42,363 nt of DNA from Moraxellaceae bacterium (GCA_030684415.1 JAUXNL010000035.1:1-42363), one strand, 5' to 3'. Shown: positions 5,227 through 32,113, numbered from the stretch's first letter. The notes: generated from the letters alone by a model not told the origin. Numbers and translations are program-made.

Positions 5227-6492
5227 ATGCCCGCTGTATTTTCCCGGACCCGCTACGGGATCTGTTTAGGGGTGACCTTGCTGACCTTAGTCGGCCCTGC
5301 GGCCGCCGAAGGATTGCGCTTTGAAGCGGCCCTGCAGGCTGCCGAGGCTAGTACACCTCAGTTGCAAGCCCGTCGCGCGGCCGTGGCCAGTGCCACCGAG
5401 GCTGCGCCAGCGGCGGATGCCTTGCCCGACCCCAAGGCCTTTATCGGCCTCGACAACCTGCCTATCGACGGCCCGGATCGCTTCAGCACCAGTCGTGACT
5501 TCATGACCATGCAGAAGATCGGGCTCATGCAGGATTTCCCGAATGGCGGCAAGCGCCAGGCCCGGGCCGACGCCGCCCAGGCGCAGGTCAGTCAGGCCGA
5601 AGCCCAACTGCACCTGGACCGTGTCACGGTCCGGATCGAGACCGCGACGGCCTGGCTCAACCGCTATTACCTGGAGCGCCAGATCGGCCTACTCGATGAA
5701 CTCGACCGCGATAACCGGCTGCTGGCCGATGTCGTTAAGGCACAGCTCGCGGCCGGTAAAGGAATGGCGGCCGACGCTTTGCTGCCCAGCCAGGAAGGCA
5801 TTGCATTGGGCAACCGGCGTGACGAGTTGCAACGGGATCGGGCCAAGGCCGAAGCCGCGCTGCAACGCTGGGTGGGCAATGTGTCCCAGCTGGGGCTAGC
5901 GGGCGAGCCGCCGCAGTTCACTGTCGATGCTGCCCAGCTACGTCAGCATGTAGAACACCATCCCGAGCTGCTGCTGTTCCAGCCCATGGCGGCCCAAGCC
6001 ACGGCGGAGCTGCACACGGCCGAAGCCGCGCGCCGACCGGATTGGGGGGTGGAGCTGGCCTATCAGAACCGTGGCCCCGCCTTTAGCGACATGGTGTCCT
6101 TACAGGTCACTCTGGACCTGCCGCTGTTCACCGGCACGCGGCAAAACCCCCTGGTCCGTGCCCGGCAGCAGGCCCTGCTCAGCATTGAGGCGGAGCGGGA
6201 AGCCATGCTGCGCGAACACCGAGCCACGCTGGACGCTGAGGTAGCGGACTACGCCGCGCTCACACAACAACTGAACCGCCAGCAACAGGAGGCCTTACCC
6301 CTGGCCCGGCAGCGGGTCGAGCTGCAATTGGCGGCCTATCAAAGCGGCCGGGCCGATCTGACCCTGGTCCTGCAGGCGCGCCGCGAACTCCGGGACAGCC
6401 GGCTTCAGGCCATCGCCCTCGAAAACCAACAACAAGTGCTGGCCGCTCGCCTGCATTACCTCTTTGACGATCATGAGGAGACCGCGCCATGA
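5227..6492 (+). CDS. cusC: TolC-family outer membrane component of Cus-type RND efflux
   Basis: ATG at 5227 (MPAVFSRTRYG...), efflux outer-membrane protein pattern, immediately upstream of adaptor and HME-RND genes. Confidence 0.85.
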   Translation: MPAVFSRTRYGICLGVTLLTLVGPAAAEGLRFEAALQAAEASTPQLQARRAAVASATEAAPAADALPDPKAFIGLDNLPIDGPDRFSTSRDFMTMQKIGLMQDFPNGGKRQARADAAQAQVSQAEAQLHLDRVTVRIETATAWLNRYYLERQIGLLDELDRDNRLLADVVKAQLAAGKGMAADALLPSQEGIALGNRRDELQRDRAKAEAALQRWVGNVSQLGLAGEPPQFTVDAAQLRQHVEHHPELLLFQPMAAQATAELHTAEAARRPDWGVELAYQNRGPAFSDMVSLQVTLDLPLFTGTRQNPLVRARQQALLSIEAEREAMLREHRATLDAEVADYAALTQQLNRQQQEALPLARQRVELQLAAYQSGRADLTLVLQARRELRDSRLQAIALENQQQVLAARLHYLFDDHEETAP

Positions 6493-7991
6493 AGCGGAAT
6501 TACCTGAAATTTGCGGCGATATTGCTTGCCGTGGCGAGCCTTAGCGGGGGCCTCGGCTATTGGCTCGCCCAGCGTCCGCCCACCATGCTGATGACTACCA
6601 CAGAAGCTCCTTCGGATCAGGAACGCAAGGTGCTGTATTGGTACGACCCCATGGTGCCCAACCAGCACTTTGACCAGCCGGGCAAATCGCCCTTCATGGA
6701 CATGCAGCTCGTGCCCCGCTATGCCGACGAGAGCGCCGATGAAAGCGGCAACGCGGGTGGCATCACAATCAGCAGTGCCCTGACCCAAAACCTGGGCGTG
6801 CGCTATGCCACGGTCGAGCGCGGCCAGTTGCCGTCAGCGGTGGAGGCCCCGGCCAACGTGGTCTTTAACGAGCGCGATGTGGCCATCGTGCAGACCCGGG
6901 CCGCCGGCTTTGTGGAACGCGTCTATGCGCGGGCGCCGGGTGACGTGATTGCCCAAGGGGCGCCCTTGCTTGACATTCTGGTGCCGGAATGGGCCGGCGC
7001 CCAGGCCGAGTATCTGGCCCTGCAACGCAGCGGCGATGAGGACCTGACACGGGCGGCCCGCGAGCGGCTGCGTCTCTTGGGCATGCCAGAGGCAGCCATT
7101 CAGCGCCTGGTAAAAAGCGGCCAGACGCAAACCCGCTTCACGGTGACGGCACCGATTGCCGGCGTCATCCAGGCGCTGGACATCCGCCAGGGCATGACCG
7201 TCAGCTCCGGTATGACCGTGGCCCGCATCAACGGCCTGGCCACGGTGTGGCTGGAGGCGGCCGTGCCCGAGACCCAGGGCGGCAGCCTTGCCGTGGGCCA
7301 GCCGGTGGCCGCGCTGTTGGCCGCCTATCCCGGCAAGTCCTTTGAGGGCCGGGTCATCGCCCTCCTGCCGGAGGTGAATCCCCAGAGCCGCACGCTGCGG
7401 GTGCGCATGGAGTTTGCCAATCGAAGGCAGGAACTGCGGCCCGGCATGTTTGCGCAGGTGCAGCTGGATACGAAGGCGCAGCAGCAAATGCTGCTGATTC
7501 CCAGCGAAGCCCTGATCCGTACCGGCAAGCGCAATATCGTCATCGTGGCGGAAGGGGACGGGCAATTCCGCCCCGTCGAAGTCACCCCGGGCAGCCAAGC
7601 CGGCGGCAAGACCGCCATTATGGCGGGCCTGGAAGCCGGCCAGAAGGTTGTGGCCTCGGGGCAGTTCCTGATTGATTCGGAAGCCAGCCTGACCGGTGTG
7701 CTGGCGCAGATGAAGACGACGGCGGAGCAAGAGCCGGAGTCACAGGCATCGGCAGCGTCGGGTCTCATCGAAGCAAGTGGCGTGGTTGAGGCTCTGGGCC
7801 ACCAGGACATCACACTCTCGCACGAGCCCATTCCCGCCTTGGACTGGCCGGCCATGACCATGCCCTTTGCCCTCGACAAGGCGGCGTCCACGCAGGGCTT
7901 GAGGAAGGGCCAGCGCGTGCAGTTCGCTCTGGAAAAACGGGGTGATGATCTGGTGGTTGTCCGCCTCCGCGCGATGGAGGGCCGGCCATGA
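6489..7991 (+). CDS. cusB: RND periplasmic adaptor CusB-like with N-terminal heavy-metal-binding motif and C-terminal CusF-like domain
   Basis: [29 protein letters not shown] metal-binding segment; HlyD/CusB body; C-terminal [36 protein letters not shown] is CusF-like. Confidence 0.9.
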
Positions 7992-18010: not shown

Positions 18011-18625
18011 TCAGGGCCGATACAGCTTTTCGTAATAGCCACTGGTTCTGACCGTGACAGTGACCGGGCCAGAGTTCTTGTTGCGCCAGTACCAGCCATG
18101 AGTGCCGTTAAACGGTGCCTCAAAGGCGCCGTTGTCTGTCGTTTGATTGCGGCCTTTCCAAAAGCTGGTGAATTCGTCTGAGGTGGTGTTCAGCTTTTCA
18201 CCGTGCATGTCGAAATTCACCGCTCCACCTGCGGCTGACCACGTAAAGAAGAAACGATCCCCGGTCTTCATCAGGGCCTTGATCTCTGCGCCTTCGCCGG
18301 GTGCCAGCGTGACGGAAAGCTCATCGTTGCGGTAAGCAACCGTAGACTTCCAGACAGCATCCAGTACGGATACCGGTGCTGTAATGGATGGTTCGACTGC
18401 GGCGGCTTCTGTTTGCGGTAGCAGGCTGGTCTCACCGCCACTCAAAGCGGTTAGGCCTAGTCGTTGGCCGATGCCGGTCGGATCAATGCCGTACTCGGCC
18501 GGCAACACGGCTGTCAGCAGAATACCAATAGCCACCGCAAGAGCGAGGAGCGTGGCCTTCAGCAATTGGGCAACAGATGGCAATGCTCTGCGGTTGATAT
18601 GCGTTATATCGGTCATGTTGTTCAA
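18011..18625 (-). CDS. Transmembrane anchor protein associated with HupE/UreJ
   Basis: 204 aa, one N-terminal TM, periplasmic domain ending in FNGTHGWYWRNKNSGPVTVTVRTSGYYEKL; overlaps HupE-like gene by 4 nt. Confidence 0.65.
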   Translation of the reverse strand: MNNMTDITHINRRALPSVAQLLKATLLALAVAIGILLTAVLPAEYGIDPTGIGQRLGLTALSGGETSLLPQTEAAAVEPSITAPVSVLDAVWKSTVAYRNDELSVTLAPGEGAEIKALMKTGDRFFFTWSAAGGAVNFDMHGEKLNTTSDEFTSFWKGRNQTTDNGAFEAPFNGTHGWYWRNKNSGPVTVTVRTSGYYEKLYRP

Positions 18626-19356
18626 ACTCCGAAGTGGGTGGCGTAACCCACCAGTTGATATCCGGTCAGCACAAATCCGGCCGACATAAGCGCGACGTTG
18701 GCCGCGAAGCTTTGGTGCTCAAACGTATCAGTGCGCCGCCAGAAACTTATGGCAATAAGGATGGCGCTCAAGGCCAGCAACTGCCCGATCTCAACCCCCA
18801 CATTGAAAGCCAGAATATTGGGCACCAGGCCTTCACTGGAAAACGTGAATTCCTGCAACTTGGTCGCCAGACCAAACCCGTGGAAAAAGCCGAAGATAAG
18901 CACCATGGCTTTGGTATTGGGCTGGAAGCCGAGAGCGCGCTTGAAAGCCCCGAGATTATCGAGCGCCTTGTAAACGACGGATAAGCCGATAATGGCATCG
19001 ACAATATAGGGGTCGACGTGTGTCCCGCTCAGCACGCCATAGAGCAGTGTCACGCTGTGACCTATCGCAAACAGCGTCACATAAATGCCGATATCCTTCA
19101 TGCGATAGAGAAAGAAAATCACCCCCACCAGAAAGAGCAGATGGTCATAGCCCGTGACCATGTGTTTGGCGCCGAGATAGATGAAGGGCAGCAACTGCAT
19201 GCCACTGCTTTGCTCAATGAAGGTCTTGTCATCATCGGCCACGCCGTGGGCAAATGCCTCCGGAGTCATGAAGGTGATCAAAAACAACATTACTAAAAAA
19301 CCAATAGCCCTCATCCAAAGTGGCCGTGGCCGCTGAAGAACTACATATTTATCCAT
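18622..19356 (-). CDS. HupE/UreJ-family membrane protein (putative Ni/Co permease)
   Basis: FAHG leader, LGAKHMVTGYDHLLFLVGVIFFL, FGFFHGFGLATKLQE motifs; start at MDKYVVLQ. Confidence 0.83.
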   Translation of the reverse strand: MDKYVVLQRPRPLWMRAIGFLVMLFLITFMTPEAFAHGVADDDKTFIEQSSGMQLLPFIYLGAKHMVTGYDHLLFLVGVIFFLYRMKDIGIYVTLFAIGHSVTLLYGVLSGTHVDPYIVDAIIGLSVVYKALDNLGAFKRALGFQPNTKAMVLIFGFFHGFGLATKLQEFTFSSEGLVPNILAFNVGVEIGQLLALSAILIAISFWRRTDTFEHQSFAANVALMSAGFVLTGYQLVGYATHFGV

Positions 19357-19476
19357 CGCTTTATTCCTCATGCGCGAGATCCCACATAAATTCACGAATC
19401 ATCCTGTGTTATCTCTGAAAATGGCTGGGTGTTGGGGGCTCCATGGTATGAAACGGTTAAGTGCCCAGACTCAAAC

Positions 19477-19856: not shown

Positions 19857-23338
<3,482 letters not shown>

Positions 23339-23350
23339 GGTCTTGTCCCC

Positions 23351-24847
23351 TTAGTGGTCGTGTTCGGCTTCGCTCTTGCCGATATCGGCCTTGAGCAGAA
23401 AGCTGTTTTTGCCGACATACTCCTGACCGGCCACGAGGCCTTCCAGGATTTCCACACGCTGACTGCCGCGACGTCCCACAGTCACCGGTCTGACCTCGAA
23501 CTGATTCCCGTATTTGGCATACACCACGGTCCAGTCGCGGAAGGATTGCAGCGCCTCATTGCTCACCGAGACAGCGGCCGTCACCTCGGCGCGGGTGATG
23601 CGGGCCTTCACGAACTGTCCCGGCTTCCAATCGATGGCCTTGTCCAGGGCCACGTACACCGCAGCGGCCCGGTTGCTCTCGCTGAGTTGCGGGCTGACCA
23701 CTTGCACGCGACCGCCGCCCGTGACCGTGCCATTGACCTGCATTACACGCACGGACTGTCCTGCCTTAAGGCCGTCCAGTTGGGCCGGTGCAGCCGAAAG
23801 CACGGCCACCAGACGATCCAGATCCGCGATGGTGAATAAGGCCGATTCCGGGGTGACGCGCTGGCCGGGCGCCAGATCGCGCGCTGTGACCCGGCCACTG
23901 CGAGGAGCGCGCAATACCAGACGGGCCAGATTGCCGGGCTGCTCCAGGCTGAGGGACTTCAGGTCGCCTTCACTCAGGCCAAACGAGAGCAGAGCGGCCC
24001 GACTGCTGGCGAGATTGATGTCGGCTTCGACCTTGGCGCTTTTGGCCGCCAGATAGTCCTGCTCGGCCGTGATCTTTTCTTTCCAGAGCATGGCTTCGCG
24101 CTGAAAGGTGGATTCCGCCAACCGGCCTCGCTCACGTGCCTCCAGGTAATTGCGCTTGAGATCAGCCAGTTCTCGGCTCTCCAGGATGGCCAACGCCTCC
24201 CCAGCCTTAACTGACTGTCCCAAACCCACCGGCGCCGACACTACAATGCCGGCCACCGGGGCCAACACCACCGCCTCACTGTTGGGTGCGACGCGGATTT
24301 CACCTTGCAGCTCGACCTCATCCCCCAGCAGGGCCGGCTCCGCTTTCAGGATTTCCAGGCCAGCACCCTTGACCTGCTCCGGATTGAGTTCAACCCGCCA
24401 CTCGATTTGGTCGTACTGGAAGGCGTAGGATTTTTGCTGGTAGGTGGCGGCGAGCTTCACGGCGAAGGAATGCGGCTCATACACCACCTGATCGCCCAAC
24501 AGATAATCGGCCTTGGGCGCAAATCGGATGGTCTGTACGGCCCCCAGTCGCTCCAGAGTAATGGTCAGATTGACGCTCCTGGGATCCAGCGGCTTGTCGT
24601 TCAGCGTGGGGTAGACCCGGAACTCGGGTTCGACCCCGTCCTCGAAAATGGTGACCTCCAGGCCCAGACCCTCCTGTTCAAACAATTTGCCGCGATGCGG
24701 GCCGCGGGGAATCTCCTCCGCCTCGGCTTCGTGGCCATGGGCAGTGGCCTCGTGGCCATGCTCTCCCTCATGGTCATCCTGGCTTTGGCTGCAGGCTGCT
24801 AGCAAAACGACCATAAGGGCCGTAGTCATTAAAACGGGGATTTTCAC
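23351..24847 (-). CDS. czcB: RND periplasmic adaptor, CzcB-type, with His-rich leader and extra N-terminal domain
   Basis: Lipoprotein-like leader LLAACSQSQDDHEGEHGHEATAHGHEAE; HlyD-type body; C-terminal TVGRRGSQRVEILEGLVAGQEYVGKNSFLLKADIGKSEAEHDH. Confidence 0.9.
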   Translation of the reverse strand: MKIPVLMTTALMVVLLAACSQSQDDHEGEHGHEATAHGHEAEAEEIPRGPHRGKLFEQEGLGLEVTIFEDGVEPEFRVYPTLNDKPLDPRSVNLTITLERLGAVQTIRFAPKADYLLGDQVVYEPHSFAVKLAATYQQKSYAFQYDQIEWRVELNPEQVKGAGLEILKAEPALLGDEVELQGEIRVAPNSEAVVLAPVAGIVVSAPVGLGQSVKAGEALAILESRELADLKRNYLEARERGRLAESTFQREAMLWKEKITAEQDYLAAKSAKVEADINLASSRAALLSFGLSEGDLKSLSLEQPGNLARLVLRAPRSGRVTARDLAPGQRVTPESALFTIADLDRLVAVLSAAPAQLDGLKAGQSVRVMQVNGTVTGGGRVQVVSPQLSESNRAAAVYVALDKAIDWKPGQFVKARITRAEVTAAVSVSNEALQSFRDWTVVYAKYGNQFEVRPVTVGRRGSQRVEILEGLVAGQEYVGKNSFLLKADIGKSEAEHDH

Positions 24848-26097
24848 TGCGAGTTCTCCTGTGCCAGGCCCATGAGGGCATCCAGCCGATTGCGCTGACG
24901 GTGGTAGTCCGTCAGGGTGTCGAGATAGTCAAAACGGGTGTCGATAAGCGCGCGCTGGGCATCCAGCACATCGAGCAGGCCGAACTTGCCGAAGCGGTAG
25001 CCCTTGTTAACGGCCTCGAAGGCTTCTTCACTGGCTGGGAGTACTGTTTTCTCAAAAGCCGTCAGTTGTTGCTCCAGGCCCTGCACCTGCGGGTAGAGGG
25101 ACTCAAGTTCGGCCTGTAGCCCCTGGGCTGTGGCTTCCTGCCGGGCCTCGGCCTCACGCAAGCGCGCTTCTGCCGCGTGGGTGGCTCCCTGGTTGCGGTC
25201 AAACAGCGGCAAGGGCAGACCAATCCCCATTTGCCAAGCAGACTCTCCGGCATCCTCGAACTGGGTCTGGCCCACGCTCAGGGTTACGCTGGGCAAGCGA
25301 CCGGCTCGGGCGGCGCGCAGGCCGGCTTCCCGAGCCTGGGTTTGGGCCTCGGCTTCCTTGAGGGCGGGATTGCGGGTCAGTGCCTGGGACAGGGCTTCGG
25401 CCGGAGGCAAGGGCTGCACCGGCGGCAATTCCTCCGGCAAAGCCCCAAAATCCGGGGTGCGGAGCCCCTGCAAGGTGGCCAGCTTCTGCCGTGCCGCGAC
25501 CAGTGTGAGCCGGGCCCGTTGTTCACGTCGCTGCAGGGCGGCAGCGGCTACCTCAACGCGGGTCAACTCGACTGGTGACACCTTGCCAGCCCTTACCTGG
25601 GTGGCGACAGCGTCGCGGGTGCTGCTAACCACCTGACTCAGTTCCTCGGCAAAGGCCACGCGCTGCTGTGCCGCCAGCACGTCCACCCAGCCGCTACGCA
25701 CTTCGGCGAGCAGCAGACTCTGCTCTTGTCCTGCGCGTAGGCGTGCCGCCTCGGCGTCGCCTTGCGCGCTGTCACGGCGGGCGCTGCGTCCGCCTGTCAG
25801 CTCCAGGCGCTGGCTCAGTTGCCAGGTGGAGGTGGGGCCGTCGAGGCCGGTAAGCTTGTCGTTGCCCAGATTCTCGCGGTTGAAATTAAGCTCGGGGTTG
25901 GGCAGCAGGCCGGCTTGCTGGGCCTCGCCCTCGGCCGCCTCGGCCGCTGCACTGGCTGCAGACAGGTTGGGATTACGGGCCAAGGCCCGTTGTTCAGCCT
26001 CGGCCAGGGTCAAGCCCAGGCTCGCCGCCGGTAGTGAAATGCCACAGAGCAGCACGGCCAGATACAGGCCGCGCCGTTTAAACGGTATGACAGGCAT
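24844..26097 (-). CDS. czcC: CzcC-type outer membrane efflux protein
   Basis: 417 aa TolC/CzcC-like; overlaps czcB by 4 nt. Confidence 0.88.
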   Translation of the reverse strand: MPVIPFKRRGLYLAVLLCGISLPAASLGLTLAEAEQRALARNPNLSAASAAAEAAEGEAQQAGLLPNPELNFNRENLGNDKLTGLDGPTSTWQLSQRLELTGGRSARRDSAQGDAEAARLRAGQEQSLLLAEVRSGWVDVLAAQQRVAFAEELSQVVSSTRDAVATQVRAGKVSPVELTRVEVAAAALQRREQRARLTLVAARQKLATLQGLRTPDFGALPEELPPVQPLPPAEALSQALTRNPALKEAEAQTQAREAGLRAARAGRLPSVTLSVGQTQFEDAGESAWQMGIGLPLPLFDRNQGATHAAEARLREAEARQEATAQGLQAELESLYPQVQGLEQQLTAFEKTVLPASEEAFEAVNKGYRFGKFGLLDVLDAQRALIDTRFDYLDTLTDYHRQRNRLDALMGLAQENSQ

Positions 26098-26161
26098 GAT
26101 GCCTCCCTCATTGGAAAACTCGGAGTCCGGCCACGGCCGGTGAGATCACCACGAGGAAGCT

Positions 26162-26581
26162 TTAATGCCGGAGCACGGTGCTCCGGATCAGGCGGGGTAA
26201 AGAGTTGCGATGCAGCAGGGGTGGCCATCGAAGCGTCAAACGCCGCAGCAGCGGCAGCTTCCAGGTCAGGAGTAGCGGCAAGAGAGCCAGGAGCAATCCC
26301 AGCAGGGATTTTGTCTTGGCATCCGGCGTGACAGGGTCGGCCGGCTTCAGATCCATGTGGTGGTGATCACTACAGCTGACCTGACAGCCGTCGTCAGCTG
26401 TTACGGGCGCAGCCGCAGCTTCATGGCTCAACATTACGTCATAGTGGCCGCCATGCCAGTTGCTGCTCACTTGGTGCCCGCTGAGACCCGCTAGAACCTG
26501 GACCAGCACCAGACCATTCTGGGCCAACAGATAGGCCAGAAGGATCAAGGGGGTCAAAAGTTGAAAGTGACGGCGGGTCAT
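26162..26581 (-). CDS. Small membrane protein of the metal efflux cluster, unknown function
   Basis: 139 aa with two hydrophobic segments and CQVSCSDHHHMDLKP metal-ligand-rich loop. Confidence 0.55.
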   Translation of the reverse strand: MTRRHFQLLTPLILLAYLLAQNGLVLVQVLAGLSGHQVSSNWHGGHYDVMLSHEAAAAPVTADDGCQVSCSDHHHMDLKPADPVTPDAKTKSLLGLLLALLPLLLTWKLPLLRRLTLRWPPLLHRNSLPRLIRSTVLRH

Positions 26582-26628
26582 GAGCAGCGTAGTGATTTTC
26601 CGTTAAAGGCGGCGTTACGCCGGCGCCA

Positions 26629-27765
26629 TCATACCACCAGGGCGTACCAGCCCTGATAGCCCACATACAGCCCGACCAAGAGGATCAAGCCGCCGGAGAA
26701 AAACGGCGCCTTGCGGGCAAACTCGCCAAAGCCGCTCCACCGTGAGCTGGCATGCTTCACGCTCAGCGCCGCCAGGATACCCGAGGCCACCATGGTCAGG
26801 GCCAGTCCAATACTGAAGCACAGCACCAGAACGGCTCCCAGTGTGAACTCCTTGAGCTGTAGGCAGAGCAGCAGCACGGTGATGGAGGCCGGACAGGGAA
26901 TGAGACCACCGGTCAGCCCGAACAATAGGATTTGCCCGTTGGTGATTTCCCGGTTGGCAAACCGACGACGAATGTCGTTGGCGTGCGCGAGCTCGTGCGC
27001 ATCCTGGTAGCCCGAACTCGCCTCCAACGCCGCGAACTCCTTCAGGGCGTGCGCGTGGCCGGGCTCGGTAAACTCCACATCAAAAGCATGGCTGTGATCG
27101 CCGTGGTGCATCGACAGGCGCACCAGAAACTCATGCGGTTCCGGAATCGTCTGCGATGACTCCAGATAATCCGATTTCTGCACGAGCGTGAACGGCATCC
27201 GGCTTCCGTCCGCGCGCTCGATCTCCAGCGAGTACGTTACCGGATGAGAGCGCAGCAGCCCGGTCTTTTGTGAGGCAGGTGCGTAGAGCCGGAAGCGTGG
27301 CGGCACATTATCTTCAAAAATCTCCAGCCGCAGCACGCCATGACCAGTATCGATCACCTTGGACGCCTCATGGGGGTGATCGTGATCATGTGAATGGTCG
27401 TGGTCATGGCCCGCCCCGTGCTGGTGGCGCCACGTCCGCCACAGCATCCAGGCTGCCACCCCCACGATCAGCACGGCCGAGGCCAGCTGAAAATACGGTT
27501 CCGAGGTCTCGGCATCCCAGCGTCCGCCAAAATGCAGGCCCACCAGCGCCACGATCCAGACCACGGCGGTATGCGAGAGAGTTGCCGCCAGCCCCAGCAT
27601 GACGGCCTGGCCGACGGTGCCGCGAATTGCCACGATGAAGGCTGCCATCATGGTCTTGCTGTGTCCCGGCTCCAGGCCGTGCAGGGCACCCAGCAGGATG
27701 GCACTAGGAATGAACAGCCAGGCATGGGCCGAGCCCTGCTGAAGCAAGGAAGCGAATTCAGTCAT
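26629..27765 (-). CDS. rcnA: RcnA/NiCoT-like nickel/cobalt exporter with His-rich loop and inserted soluble domain
   Basis: ALHGLEPGHSKTMMAAFIVA, HDHDHSHDHDHPHE loop, GLTGGLIPCPASITVLLL; divergent from RcnR-like gene. Confidence 0.88.
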   Translation of the reverse strand: MTEFASLLQQGSAHAWLFIPSAILLGALHGLEPGHSKTMMAAFIVAIRGTVGQAVMLGLAATLSHTAVVWIVALVGLHFGGRWDAETSEPYFQLASAVLIVGVAAWMLWRTWRHQHGAGHDHDHSHDHDHPHEASKVIDTGHGVLRLEIFEDNVPPRFRLYAPASQKTGLLRSHPVTYSLEIERADGSRMPFTLVQKSDYLESSQTIPEPHEFLVRLSMHHGDHSHAFDVEFTEPGHAHALKEFAALEASSGYQDAHELAHANDIRRRFANREITNGQILLFGLTGGLIPCPASITVLLLCLQLKEFTLGAVLVLCFSIGLALTMVASGILAALSVKHASSRWSGFGEFARKAPFFSGGLILLVGLYVGYQGWYALVV

Positions 27766-27843: not shown

Positions 27844-28116
27844 ATGGCTCACATCCTCCGCGACAAGGACAAGCTGCTTGCCCGCATTCGCCGTATCCAG
27901 GGTCAGGCGGCCGGCCTCGAACGCCTGCTGGATGCGGGTAGCGACTGCCAGGAAGTGCTGCAGCAGATCGCCGCCATCAAGGGGGCCGTCAACGGCCTGA
28001 TGTACACCGTGCTGGAGGGGCACCTCGTCGAGCATGTAGTGCATGAGCCTGATGCCCGGCAGCGCGAGCAGGATTTTGAGGTGGTGCTGCAGGTGATCCG
28101 GTCATATTTGAAGTAA
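27844..28116 (+). CDS. rcnR: RcnR/CsoR-family Ni/Co-responsive repressor
   Basis: MAHILRDKDKLLARIRRIQGQ...DCQEVLQQIAAIKGAVNGLM...EGHLVEHVVH; His3, Cys35, His60, His64 equivalents present. Confidence 0.9.
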   Translation: MAHILRDKDKLLARIRRIQGQAAGLERLLDAGSDCQEVLQQIAAIKGAVNGLMYTVLEGHLVEHVVHEPDARQREQDFEVVLQVIRSYLK

Positions 28117-28140: not shown

Positions 28141-29124
28141 ATGACGGTTGATCGCTATATCGACGCGGCGACTCGTGCCAACACCCGCCGCAGCTACCGC
28201 AGTGCCATTGAGCATTACGAGGCCGAATGGGGCGGTTTTCTGCCCGCGACGGCGGACAGTGTGGCGCGGTATCTCGCGGCCTATGCAGGTAACCTTTCGA
28301 TCAGCACCCTGAAGCTGCGACTGGCGGCGCTCGCACAATGGCATCTCGACCAGGGTTTTCCCGACCCGACCAAGGCGCCGATGGTCAAAAAGGTGCTCAA
28401 AGGCATCCGGGAATTGCATCCCGAACGTGAGAAGCAAGCGGCACCTCTGCAACTGAGCCAACTGGAACAGCTAGCGGCCTGGCTACTGCGGGAGGAGAGC
28501 ATGGCCAACGATGCGGGTGACAAGGCTCGCGGAATGCGCTGCCGCCGGGATCGTGCCTTGGTTCTATTGGGTTTCTGGCGTGCCTTTCGCAGCGACGAAC
28601 TTTGCCGCCTGCGCCTTGAGGACAGCGTGATTCATCACGGCCAGGGCCTGTCACTCTATCTGCCACGAAGCAAGGGGGATCGGCGTAACGAGGGGACGCA
28701 CTACAAGGTGCCGGCCTTGAGTCGCCTCTGTCCGGTAACCGCCTACCAGGCTTGGGCGGAATCAATGCCTCGGCAACACGGCCCGGTTTTCTGTGCCATT
28801 GATCGCTGGGGTCGTGTCAGCGACACGGCCATGCATCCCAACAGCATCATCCCCTTACTGCGAAGCCTTTTTCAGCAGGCCGGCATCGCCGATGCCGCGC
28901 TCTACAGCAGCCACTCCTTGCGCCGCGGCTTTGCCACTTGGGCCAATGGCCAAGGCTGGGATGTGAAAGCGCTGATGGAATATGTCGGCTGGAAGGATAT
29001 GAAGTCTGCCTTACGCTACATCGATTCGGCAGATCCCTTCCGACAGCAGCAGATCAACACCAGCCTGGCGCTCAGCGACCAGGTGTTAGTTGCGCTGACC
29101 GAGAATGCCGCCCCGATGGAATGA
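28141..29124 (+). CDS. Tyrosine recombinase (TnpI-like), copy 2
   Basis: 327 aa, closely similar to copy 1 including SSHSLRRGFATWANGQGWDVKALMEYVGWKDMKSALRYID; begins 24 nt after rcnR. Confidence 0.87.
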   Translation: MTVDRYIDAATRANTRRSYRSAIEHYEAEWGGFLPATADSVARYLAAYAGNLSISTLKLRLAALAQWHLDQGFPDPTKAPMVKKVLKGIRELHPEREKQAAPLQLSQLEQLAAWLLREESMANDAGDKARGMRCRRDRALVLLGFWRAFRSDELCRLRLEDSVIHHGQGLSLYLPRSKGDRRNEGTHYKVPALSRLCPVTAYQAWAESMPRQHGPVFCAIDRWGRVSDTAMHPNSIIPLLRSLFQQAGIADAALYSSHSLRRGFATWANGQGWDVKALMEYVGWKDMKSALRYIDSADPFRQQQINTSLALSDQVLVALTENAAPME

Positions 29125-29149
29125 TGTTGATCTTCTCGGACCACCGCTC

Positions 29150-32113
29150 ATGAGCCACATTGACGAAACTGCCTATCCGCAGCTGAAGGCCGAGCCGACT
29201 GCTCAGGAATTGGAGTCAATTTACACCCCCTCGGCGGCCGAGAAGACCTTTGTCTTTGCGCAATATCAGCGGCAGCAGACTCGCACCTTCCTGCTGATCC
29301 AGCTCAAGCTCATGCAACGCTTGGGCTACGTGCCGGCTTTGGCCACGGTGCCTGCGGACATCCTGCAGCATATCTGCAAGAAGGCCCGCCTGCCCAAGCC
29401 CGGCAAAGAGGCCTTGACACACTATGAACGCACTGGCCACAAAACCCGCCACATGCAGTGCCTGCGTAATTACCTGAAGTTGTCCGTTGTCGATGCTGAC
29501 GCACGAATCTGGCTCACGCAGCGCGCCGAACTGGCGGCACAGACAAAACAGGAACTGCCAGACATTATTAATGTGTTGCTCGAAGAATTGATCCGGCATC
29601 GTTACGAATTACCGGGCTTCACCGTTTTGTCGCGGCTTGCCCGGCAGGCCCGCACGGCCGTCAATGAGCGGTTGTATCTGGCGGTGGAAAAGGGATTGTC
29701 TCCGGTCACGATGTCACGGCTGGATCAGTTGCTGACGGGCCAGCCCGGCCGCAGTGGCTGGGATCAGGTGAAACGTGAACCGAAGCGGCCAACGGCCCGC
29801 GAGGTAGCGAGCTTTCTGCAGCACATCCAGTGGCTGATGGGTCTGGCCGAAGGGTTGCCGGCATTAAAGGATGTGGCTGTCACCAAACGCCAGCAACTGG
29901 TCTTGGAGGCGCGAGCCCTCGATATTGCCGAGATGCGCGCTCTCAAGGCGCCCAAACGATACACGCTTGCTGTGTTGTTGGTGCAATCGCAGATGCAAAA
30001 AGCCATGGATGATGTGGCCGAGATGTTCATCAAAACCCTGCGCAACCTACATCATGTTGCTGAGACTCGGCTGCAGCAATATCACCTTGAGCATGCCGAG
30101 CAGGTAGACAAGCTGGTGGGTCAGTTCCGGGAAGTGCTGAACGCACTACAAGACGTAAATGCGCCGGCCGAGCGCTTGGCGCGGGTGGAACAGGTCGTGG
30201 GCGATCCCGAGCCCTGGATTGCTCAGTGCGATGAGCATATTGCTTTCGCCGGCAACAATTATTATCCCTTTTTGTTGCAGCCGTACCGCGTTAAACGGGC
30301 CTTGCTCTTCCAGTGCCTAGAGGTACTGAGTCTGAAATCATCTTCGCAGGATGACTCGCTGCTGCAGGCCTTGTGTTGGCTGCGCCCCTATCGGAACAGT
30401 CATCGCGAATATATTCCGCTCGCCGGCCCGGACGAACTACCGTTGCACTGGCTGCCGGAAAAGTGGCGACGCTTGGTGCTGGGCAAAGGCAAGCCGAACA
30501 CACCGCCGGGGATGATCCATCGAAAATACCTGGAGTTATGCCTGCTCTCGCAAATCATGCAGGAGCTAAAATCGGGTGACCTCTATGTCGAGCACAGCGA
30601 CCAGTATGACGATTATCGGGAGCATCTGGTCAGCTGGGAAGATTATCAGCAAGAGCTGACAGCCTACGGCGAGATGGTGGGGCTGCCGGTAGAGGCCGAG
30701 GCATTTGTTAGCACCTTGCGGCAGGAGTTAGTGAGCCTGGCACTGCAGGTCGATGAGCGTTTTCCCGATAACGAGCATGTGGATATTGGCGAGTCGGGTT
30801 TGGTGATCCGCCGTACCGAGCGGGCACAACCACCGGCGCAGTTGGAGGCTATCGACCAAGCCATCATTCGGACCATGAAGGAGGTCAGCATCCTCGATGT
30901 GCTGACCGAGACCGAGCAGTGGTTGGACCTCTATCGCCTGTTCGGGCCGTTGTCCGGCTTGGAGGCCAAGATAGACGATCCGCGCAAACGGTTTCTCACG
31001 ACATTGTTCTGCTACGGCTGCAATCTGGGGCCCAGTCAAACTGCACGCTCCGTGAAAAGCCTGAGTCGCAAGCAGGTGGCTTGGCTCAACCTGCGCCATG
31101 TCACCGAGGAGCGTCTGGACAAGGCCGTGGTTAAAGTCATCAATGCCTACAATCGTTTTGCTTTGCCGCGATACTGGGGCACCGGCAAACACGTCTCAGC
31201 CGACGGCACGAAATGGAATGTCTACGAGCAAAACTTGCTTTCCGAGTACCACATTCGCTATGGAGGATATGGCGGCATTGGCTATTACCATGTCTCTGAC
31301 AAATACATCGCCTTGTTCAGCCGCTTCATTCCCTGCGGCGCCCATGAAGCGATCTATATTCTGGACCCCTTGGTGGATAACGAGTCCGACATCCAGCCGG
31401 ATACCGTGCATGGCGACACTCAGGCGCAAAGCGCCCCGGTCTTCGGGCTGGCCCATCTTCTTGGCATTAAACTGATGCCCAGGATTCGCGGGATCAAGGA
31501 GCTGACCTTCTTTAAGCCGGAGAAGGAGACGGAATACCAACATATCAGCCGGCTATTCACCGGCACCGTGGACTGGGACCTGATTGCCCGGCACTTGCCC
31601 GACATGCTGCGGGTCGTCATCTCCATCAAGGCGGGGAAAATCACCCCCTCCATGATCCTGCGTCGGCTCGGCACCTACAGCCGCAAGAACAAGTTGTACT
31701 TCGCCTTCCGCGAACTGGGGAGGGTGGTACGGACGCTATTCCTGCTGAATTACATCAACGACGTCGAGCTGCGCCGCACCATCCATGCAGCCACCAACAA
31801 GAGTGAGGAATTCAATAACTTCGCCAAATGGCTGTTTTTTGGCGGGGACGGCATCATTGCGGAGAACGTGCGTCACGAGCAGCGCAAGGTCATCAAGTAC
31901 AATCATTTGGTGGCCAACATGGTCATTCTGCACAACGTACAGTCCATGTCCCGGGTTCTGAAGCAGTTGCAGCAGGAAGGCCATCCGATTGACGAGGACA
32001 TTCTCAAGGGCTTGTCACCGTACCGGAACATCCATATCAACCGGTTCGGCGATTACATGCTGGATCTGCAGCGCAAGGTCGACCCCATCGATTTTAAAAT
32101 AACGTTTCATTAG
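29150..32113 (+). CDS. tnpA: Tn3-family transposase, full length
   Basis: 987 aa; DUF4158-like N-terminus and DDE domain (SADGTKWNVYEQ..., DTVHGDTQAQSAPVFGLAHLLG, EEFNNFAKWLFFGGDGIIAENVRHEQRK). Confidence 0.95.
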   Translation: MSHIDETAYPQLKAEPTAQELESIYTPSAAEKTFVFAQYQRQQTRTFLLIQLKLMQRLGYVPALATVPADILQHICKKARLPKPGKEALTHYERTGHKTRHMQCLRNYLKLSVVDADARIWLTQRAELAAQTKQELPDIINVLLEELIRHRYELPGFTVLSRLARQARTAVNERLYLAVEKGLSPVTMSRLDQLLTGQPGRSGWDQVKREPKRPTAREVASFLQHIQWLMGLAEGLPALKDVAVTKRQQLVLEARALDIAEMRALKAPKRYTLAVLLVQSQMQKAMDDVAEMFIKTLRNLHHVAETRLQQYHLEHAEQVDKLVGQFREVLNALQDVNAPAERLARVEQVVGDPEPWIAQCDEHIAFAGNNYYPFLLQPYRVKRALLFQCLEVLSLKSSSQDDSLLQALCWLRPYRNSHREYIPLAGPDELPLHWLPEKWRRLVLGKGKPNTPPGMIHRKYLELCLLSQIMQELKSGDLYVEHSDQYDDYREHLVSWEDYQQELTAYGEMVGLPVEAEAFVSTLRQELVSLALQVDERFPDNEHVDIGESGLVIRRTERAQPPAQLEAIDQAIIRTMKEVSILDVLTETEQWLDLYRLFGPLSGLEAKIDDPRKRFLTTLFCYGCNLGPSQTARSVKSLSRKQVAWLNLRHVTEERLDKAVVKVINAYNRFALPRYWGTGKHVSADGTKWNVYEQNLLSEYHIRYGGYGGIGYYHVSDKYIALFSRFIPCGAHEAIYILDPLVDNESDIQPDTVHGDTQAQSAPVFGLAHLLGIKLMPRIRGIKELTFFKPEKETEYQHISRLFTGTVDWDLIARHLPDMLRVVISIKAGKITPSMILRRLGTYSRKNKLYFAFRELGRVVRTLFLLNYINDVELRRTIHAATNKSEEFNNFAKWLFFGGDGIIAENVRHEQRKVIKYNHLVANMVILHNVQSMSRVLKQLQQEGHPIDEDILKGLSPYRNIHINRFGDYMLDLQRKVDPIDFKITFH

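Follow-up and report, generated by a model that had tools for sequence, protein, structure and literature searches.

The N-terminal part of a CzcB-type periplasmic adaptor and the loop between transmembrane segments 3 and 4 (TM3-TM4) of an RcnA-like nickel/cobalt exporter, both encoded in a 42,363-nucleotide contig of a Moraxellaceae bacterium (GCA_030684415.1 JAUXNL010000035.1:1-42363; hereafter the window, meaning the whole of this stretch), are one homologous domain of ~95 amino acids. The same domain, here called the EPHxF domain after its motif, was also recovered in exporters of the cation diffusion facilitator (CDF) family, and as a domain common to three exporter superfamilies it is apparently undescribed so far. 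To our knowledge, little is understood of how exporters of the CzcB, RcnA, and DmeF types acquire the Ni, Co, Zn, or Cd that they transport, whereas CusF is the known donor in Cu and Ag export. The presence of one domain, with its motif invariant, in three exporter types yields a single testable hypothesis on metal pick-up; if true, it would also give an annotation to part of the classic CzcB and of nickel-resistance proteins encoded by clinical plasmids of Klebsiella and Enterobacter.

Both window genes lie on the minus strand. The gene czcB (23351..24847) encodes an adaptor of the resistance-nodulation-division (RND) type that contains, in order, a signal sequence with a lipobox (LAAC19), a short His-rich stretch read from the translation (residues 26-40; 24728..24772), the EPHxF domain, and the adaptor core, and ends in an HDH tail. 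The domain spans residues 48-151 (24395..24706), including the adaptor-type motif GPHRG at residues 49-53, with a profile match of E 5.8e-39 to a model of which this CzcB is itself a member by construction; in the conservation table, its motif is EPHSF at residues 124-128 (24464..24478). Matches to TIGR00999, RND_mfp, and HlyD_D23 cover only residues 170-490, and the domain stretch is without a Pfam match. TIGR00999 scored 155 bits, below its cut-off of 319, but TIGR01730 scored above its own cut-off and czcC and czcA are adjacent, in agreement with a CzcB-type adaptor. The rcnA/ncrC-like gene (26629..27765) encodes a NicO-family Ni/Co exporter (PF03824, E 4e-41; NF007454, E 9e-134, 445 bits against a cut-off of 195) with a divergent rcnR neighbor. 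Here the domain occupies residues 141-234 (27064..27345; profile match E 8.8e-34), flanked by His-rich stretches within the TM3-TM4 loop, the one ahead of it at residues 114-133 (27367..27426, from the translation), and its motif is EPHEF at residues 209-213 (27127..27141; conservation table). The NicO model matches the protein on either side of the domain (1-135 and 121-273), and the domain is thus an insert; no domain match was obtained for the NicO proteins of several class genomes (G004, G049, and G055 among them), and the domain is therefore optional. A first-pass annotation of the window had placed the domain directly after a His-rich stretch in both proteins, which is correct for these two copies and only partly general among their relatives, as at least four His residues occur within the preceding 40 residues in 89 of 94 NicO proteins and 6 of 6 DmeF-type proteins, but in only 21 of 62 CzcB-type adaptors.

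Comparison of the whole CzcB with the whole RcnA-like protein by BLASTP aligned residues 63-149 with 145-234 at 34% identity over 90 amino acids (52.4 bits, E 1e-11). Profile-profile comparison of the CzcB-type copies (41 sequences) with the NicO/CDF-type copies (11 sequences) returned a probability of 99.3% (E 2.3e-20), whereas the controls, one reversed and 29 column-shuffled, reached at most 4.2%; the similarity is thus not due to chance. AlphaFold predicted a beta-sandwich for both the RcnA copy (predicted local distance difference test score, pLDDT, 80) and the CzcB copy (pLDDT 74), with eight strands in the same order and shared top matches in the PDB, although the alignment behind the CzcB model consisted mostly of NicO rows and the two models are not fully independent. 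The shared soluble domain that the first-pass annotation had proposed is therefore confirmed by BLASTP, by a significant profile-profile comparison, and by a common predicted fold, the last two being checks that it had itself named.

Conservation was concentrated at the same positions in both groups (CzcB/RcnA numbering), with E69/E151, R100/R184, E124-P-H-x-F128/E209-P-H-x-F213, and E149/E234 each kept in at least 97% of copies. Within EPHxF, the 62 adaptor copies retain E in 98% and P, H, and F in 100%, and the 113 cytoplasmic-type copies retain E in 97%, P and H in 98%, and F in 99%. No conserved Met was present among the domain's conserved positions that would correspond to the methionine-rich metal site of YtkA/CrdA. 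A Pfam scan of 10 representative copies gave no significant match, the NCBIfam matches on both window proteins all lay outside the domain, and a profile run against PDB sequences returned nothing meaningful and no sequence-related solved structure. No paper tying the CzcB, RcnA, and DmeF domains together was found in a literature search that covered few subscription papers. PF25971, which we take to be a model of the CzcB N-terminal domain in newer InterPro/Pfam releases, may cover the adaptor version; it is not known to cover NicO or CDF carriers.

Among the best PDB matches of both models in Foldseek were Helicobacter pylori CrdA (9ll2, 9ll4) and DUF4426 (3uc2). The match to CrdA was weak (template modelling score 0.60-0.69, E 7.6e-4 to 3e-2) and, because E-values of this size are modest and beta-sandwiches are common, it is taken as a functional lead and not as membership. 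CrdA presumably belongs to the YtkA-type family; membership of the EPHxF domain in YtkA/CrdA (PF13115), a candidate prompted by the fold search and by fusions of YtkA to adaptors, was rejected on sequence, and hmmscan gave no match to PF13115 even at E 10.

After deduplication, the opened loci yielded 94 NicO proteins, 62 RND adaptors, 16 CDF exporters, two fragments, and three small proteins with a membrane anchor, and no non-metal carrier was among them; the large scan had RcnA as its seed, which inflates the NicO count. Any match was obtained in 32 of 274 genomes of the class sample, with many CzcB-type adaptors, and in 57 of 399 genomes of the phylum sample, where some of the carriers were CDF exporters with the domain once or twice at the N-terminus. 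Plasmid searches added NcrC/RcnA proteins of Klebsiella and Enterobacter and, unexpectedly, the CDF exporter DmeF, in which the domain sits in the TM4-TM5 loop. Pfam confirmed the CDF identity of the N-terminal, loop, and C-terminal carriers and left the domain stretch unannotated. Four CDF exporters (loci L157, L160, L162, and L164) have two tandem N-terminal copies with a His-rich tail after each, and three (L106, L175, and L180) have a weakly matching C-terminal copy with flanking His residues. The three small membrane-anchored proteins (L170, L171, and L172) come from one genome, where they lie near RND or CDF genes, at least one of them in a czc-type cluster, and in two the motif is degraded to EPLxF. 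Truncated NicO genes at L106 (10060-10650) and L096 keep part of the domain and are apparently decaying copies. A mixed 18-sequence alignment was too diverse for collection scans, and two scans of viral contigs gave no domain match. Fifty-seven of the 62 domain-bearing adaptors end in HxH, whereas a His tail of any kind was seen in 2 of 19 domain-free adaptors, in a comparison of related sequences whose counts are not independent.

The side of the inner membrane on which the domain lies differs between carriers. CzcB copies are exported, as indicated in the window by the signal sequence with its lipobox, and in CDF exporters the TM4-TM5 loop and both termini are cytoplasmic. In Escherichia coli RcnA, cysteine accessibility places the C-terminal tail in the periplasm, with six transmembrane segments (PMC11589881), and the TM3-TM4 loop is thus cytoplasmic, as has also been predicted (PMC11247825); the loop of the CDF protein ZnT7 is likewise cytosolic (PMC10409766). 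With the CzcB copy periplasmic and the RcnA and CDF copies cytoplasmic, the same domain therefore works on both membrane faces.

On balance, we favor a function in which this ~95-residue beta-sandwich, attached to unrelated divalent-metal exporters, loads its own exporter in cis. Judging from conservation, the domain would bind Ni(II), Co(II), Zn(II), or similar ions through its conserved Glu and His residues, and the flanking His-rich segments may help or feed the predicted metal site. It would then load or concentrate the metal where ions enter the exporter that carries it. For CzcB this place would be periplasmic, next to the entrance of the RND pump; for RcnA and the CDF exporters it would be cytoplasmic, next to the transmembrane entry. 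Each copy would act in cis on the transporter to which it is attached. Because a third, unrelated family carries the domain and both membrane sides have copies, it is probably a general metal-catching attachment and not a relay between CzcB and RcnA. More tentatively, we propose one metal-capturing family that occupies mirror positions on both inner-membrane faces, loads RND adaptors, NicO proteins, and CDF exporters, includes the founding CzcB among its carriers, and has its site in EPHxF plus conserved Glu. A role in metal handling is plausible, given that all large carriers recovered were metal exporters; of the mobile metal-sensing or metal-donor domain in the first-pass annotation, the single homologous, mobile, soluble domain is supported and the metal handling is plausible.

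Cis-loading is supported by the tandem N-terminal copies of the CDF exporters, each with its own His-rich tail, by the parallel fusions of CusF to CusB in the window and of YtkA to other adaptors, and by the association of the domain with the C-terminal HxH tail in adaptors. Structures of ZnT7 have led to the proposal that its cytosolic His loop recruits zinc (PMC10409766). A further possible parallel is the sensitivity to Co and Ni that results from deletion of a dmeF whose product has a His-rich stretch between TM4 and TM5 (PMC6044271). Several points weigh against loading. Metal-binding data for the EPHxF domain were not found; a tight site would be expected to need more ligands than one conserved His and several Glu residues; and the conserved Arg residues may belong to a purely structural network. 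The small carriers have a degraded motif or are without strong His flanks, AlphaFold confidence is moderate, the best Foldseek E-values are weak (5.8e-4 to 4e-3), and profile-profile comparison with YtkA-type domains reached 2%.

In all large carriers the EPHxF domain is attached next to the transport domain, a position that would also suit a metal-responsive gate or allosteric sensor acting in cis, in which metal binding shifts the packing of the domain on the transporter and switches transport on while the ion itself is not delivered. The pattern of Arg and Glu residues would fit such a switch, and CDF cytoplasmic domains are reported to move on metal binding (PMC3962391); however, the tandem N-terminal copies of CDF exporters, with their long His-rich linkers, look more like added binding capacity than one gate, and we consider a gate unlikely. 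Slightly less likely again is a packing or oligomerization module that binds no metal and leaves the metal work to the His-rich flanks. Beta-sandwiches are common as packing modules, the invariant Arg, Pro, Phe, and Glu residues could form a folding core, and NicO proteins without the domain exist, so export is possible without it; yet the carriers found were only metal exporters and small proteins, at least one of the latter in a czc-type cluster, and the His of EPH, which a pure spacer would not need, is kept in 98-100% of copies on both membrane sides.

Phylogenetic analysis of 114 copies, based on few columns and with many weak forks, separated all 62 adaptor copies, by a branch supported at 99/99, from the NicO and CDF copies, which are partly intermixed. 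Given this deep split and an identity of 34%, the two window copies are old relatives without recent duplication; recent copying of the domain between czcB and rcnA was thus ruled out. The phylogeny also bears on the first-pass annotation's model, in which the two copies coordinate a handover of metal between RcnA and CzcB within one operon. The two genes are in tandem on one strand, metal exported by RcnA arrives in the periplasm, where CzcCBA could take it up, and locus L083 repeats the arrangement, with a domain-bearing CzcB, CzcA, and a domain-bearing NicO protein in a row. However, the copies lie on opposite sides of the inner membrane and in separate clades, and among the class, family, and phylum genomes that were opened, which did not include every hit, a NicO-type copy and an adaptor-type copy occurred together only in the window's own genome. 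A domain-bearing CzcB was near the NicO gene at 1 of 80 NicO loci, and the congener operon (small protein-czcC-czcB-czcA) is without rcnRA beside it. Topology, phylogeny, co-occurrence, and the congener operon thus all fail to support coordinated handover, which we regard as very improbable. The pairing of czc and rcnRA in the window looks like a chance product of mobile-element traffic: a tyrosine recombinase and a Tn3-family transposase (28141..32113, plus strand; PF00589, E 1.9e-11; PF01526, E 1.9e-151) adjoin rcnRA, and a Burkholderia plasmid relative likewise adjoins a recombinase and a Tn3 transposase. Finally, both proteins do contain low-complexity His-rich stretches, but a convergent or composition-driven similarity of His-rich and acidic residues is refuted, with virtually no probability left to it, as the alignment lies outside those stretches, BLASTP was composition-adjusted, and shuffled profiles reached no more than 4%.

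The remaining genes of the two systems are organized around czcB and rcnA. On the minus strand, the outer-membrane factor gene czcC (24844..26097; PF02321, E 3.5e-50) and the RND pump gene czcA (19857..22985; PF00873, 1116 bits) accompany czcB. A P-II-like small protein is encoded between czcB and czcA (22997..23338, minus strand; PF00543, E 2.8e-11), a gene found at the same position in the Thauera plasmid pTX1 and absent from the congener operon (L057). A small protein that contains His residues, has a hydrophobic segment at its N-terminus, and lacks any Pfam or NCBIfam match (26162..26581, minus strand) is kept as the first gene of the czc operon in that congener locus. Divergent from rcnA, an rcnR-like gene for a Ni/Co-responsive repressor (27844..28116, plus strand) matched PF02583 at 82.6 bits and NF011613 at 121 bits, below the 138-bit cut-off. 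Downstream of czcA is a gene for a membrane protein (18622-19395, minus strand) of the HupE/UreJ_2 family, which is linked to nickel or cobalt uptake.

Among known systems, the founding CzcB of Cupriavidus metallidurans CH34 (pMOL30) contains the domain at residues 76-182 (independent E-value 9e-21). As in the window, the domain follows a His-rich stretch there; it starts with GPNGG, and its motif reads EPHVF. However, the copy is more divergent, the protein has an uncleaved N-terminal hydrophobic segment in place of the window's clear lipobox, and no rcnA is present in the annotated stretch examined. NcrC, the long-loop RcnA of Klebsiella and Enterobacter plasmids (AMRFinder 'ncrC'), is a resistance-annotated NicO exporter with the same inserted domain, but in the plasmid examined it adjoins an exporter of the major facilitator superfamily (NcrA/NirA) and a regulator, whereas the window gene adjoins a czc operon. 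In DmeF and other CDF exporters, the domain lies in the TM4-TM5 loop or at one of the two termini, and the plasmid-borne DmeF cases lie beside RcnR-type regulators; their transporter family is unrelated, however, and N-terminal carriers often have the domain in tandem. H. pylori CrdA, the best metal-related fold match for both models, binds copper in the periplasm for the CrdAB-CzcBA pump (PMC9182242) but differs in being stand-alone, Met-rich without His, and a binder of Cu and Ag, and the YtkA-type domains tested showed no sequence relation to the EPHxF domain. A comparable arrangement within the window is that of the CusB-type adaptor (6489-7988, plus strand), which has an N-terminal heavy-metal-binding domain (PF19335) and a fused C-terminal CusF domain (PF11604), a known adaptor-chaperone fusion. 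CusF, a metal-binding domain on an RND adaptor, is comparable to the EPHxF domain in the latter's presumed role. It belongs to another family, however, which binds Cu(I)/Ag(I), is covered by a Pfam model of its own, and is not comparable in sequence. A further parallel to the EPHxF domain is seen in three CusB-like adaptors (L188, L189, and L191), each of which has two N-terminal YtkA domains with Met-rich motifs.

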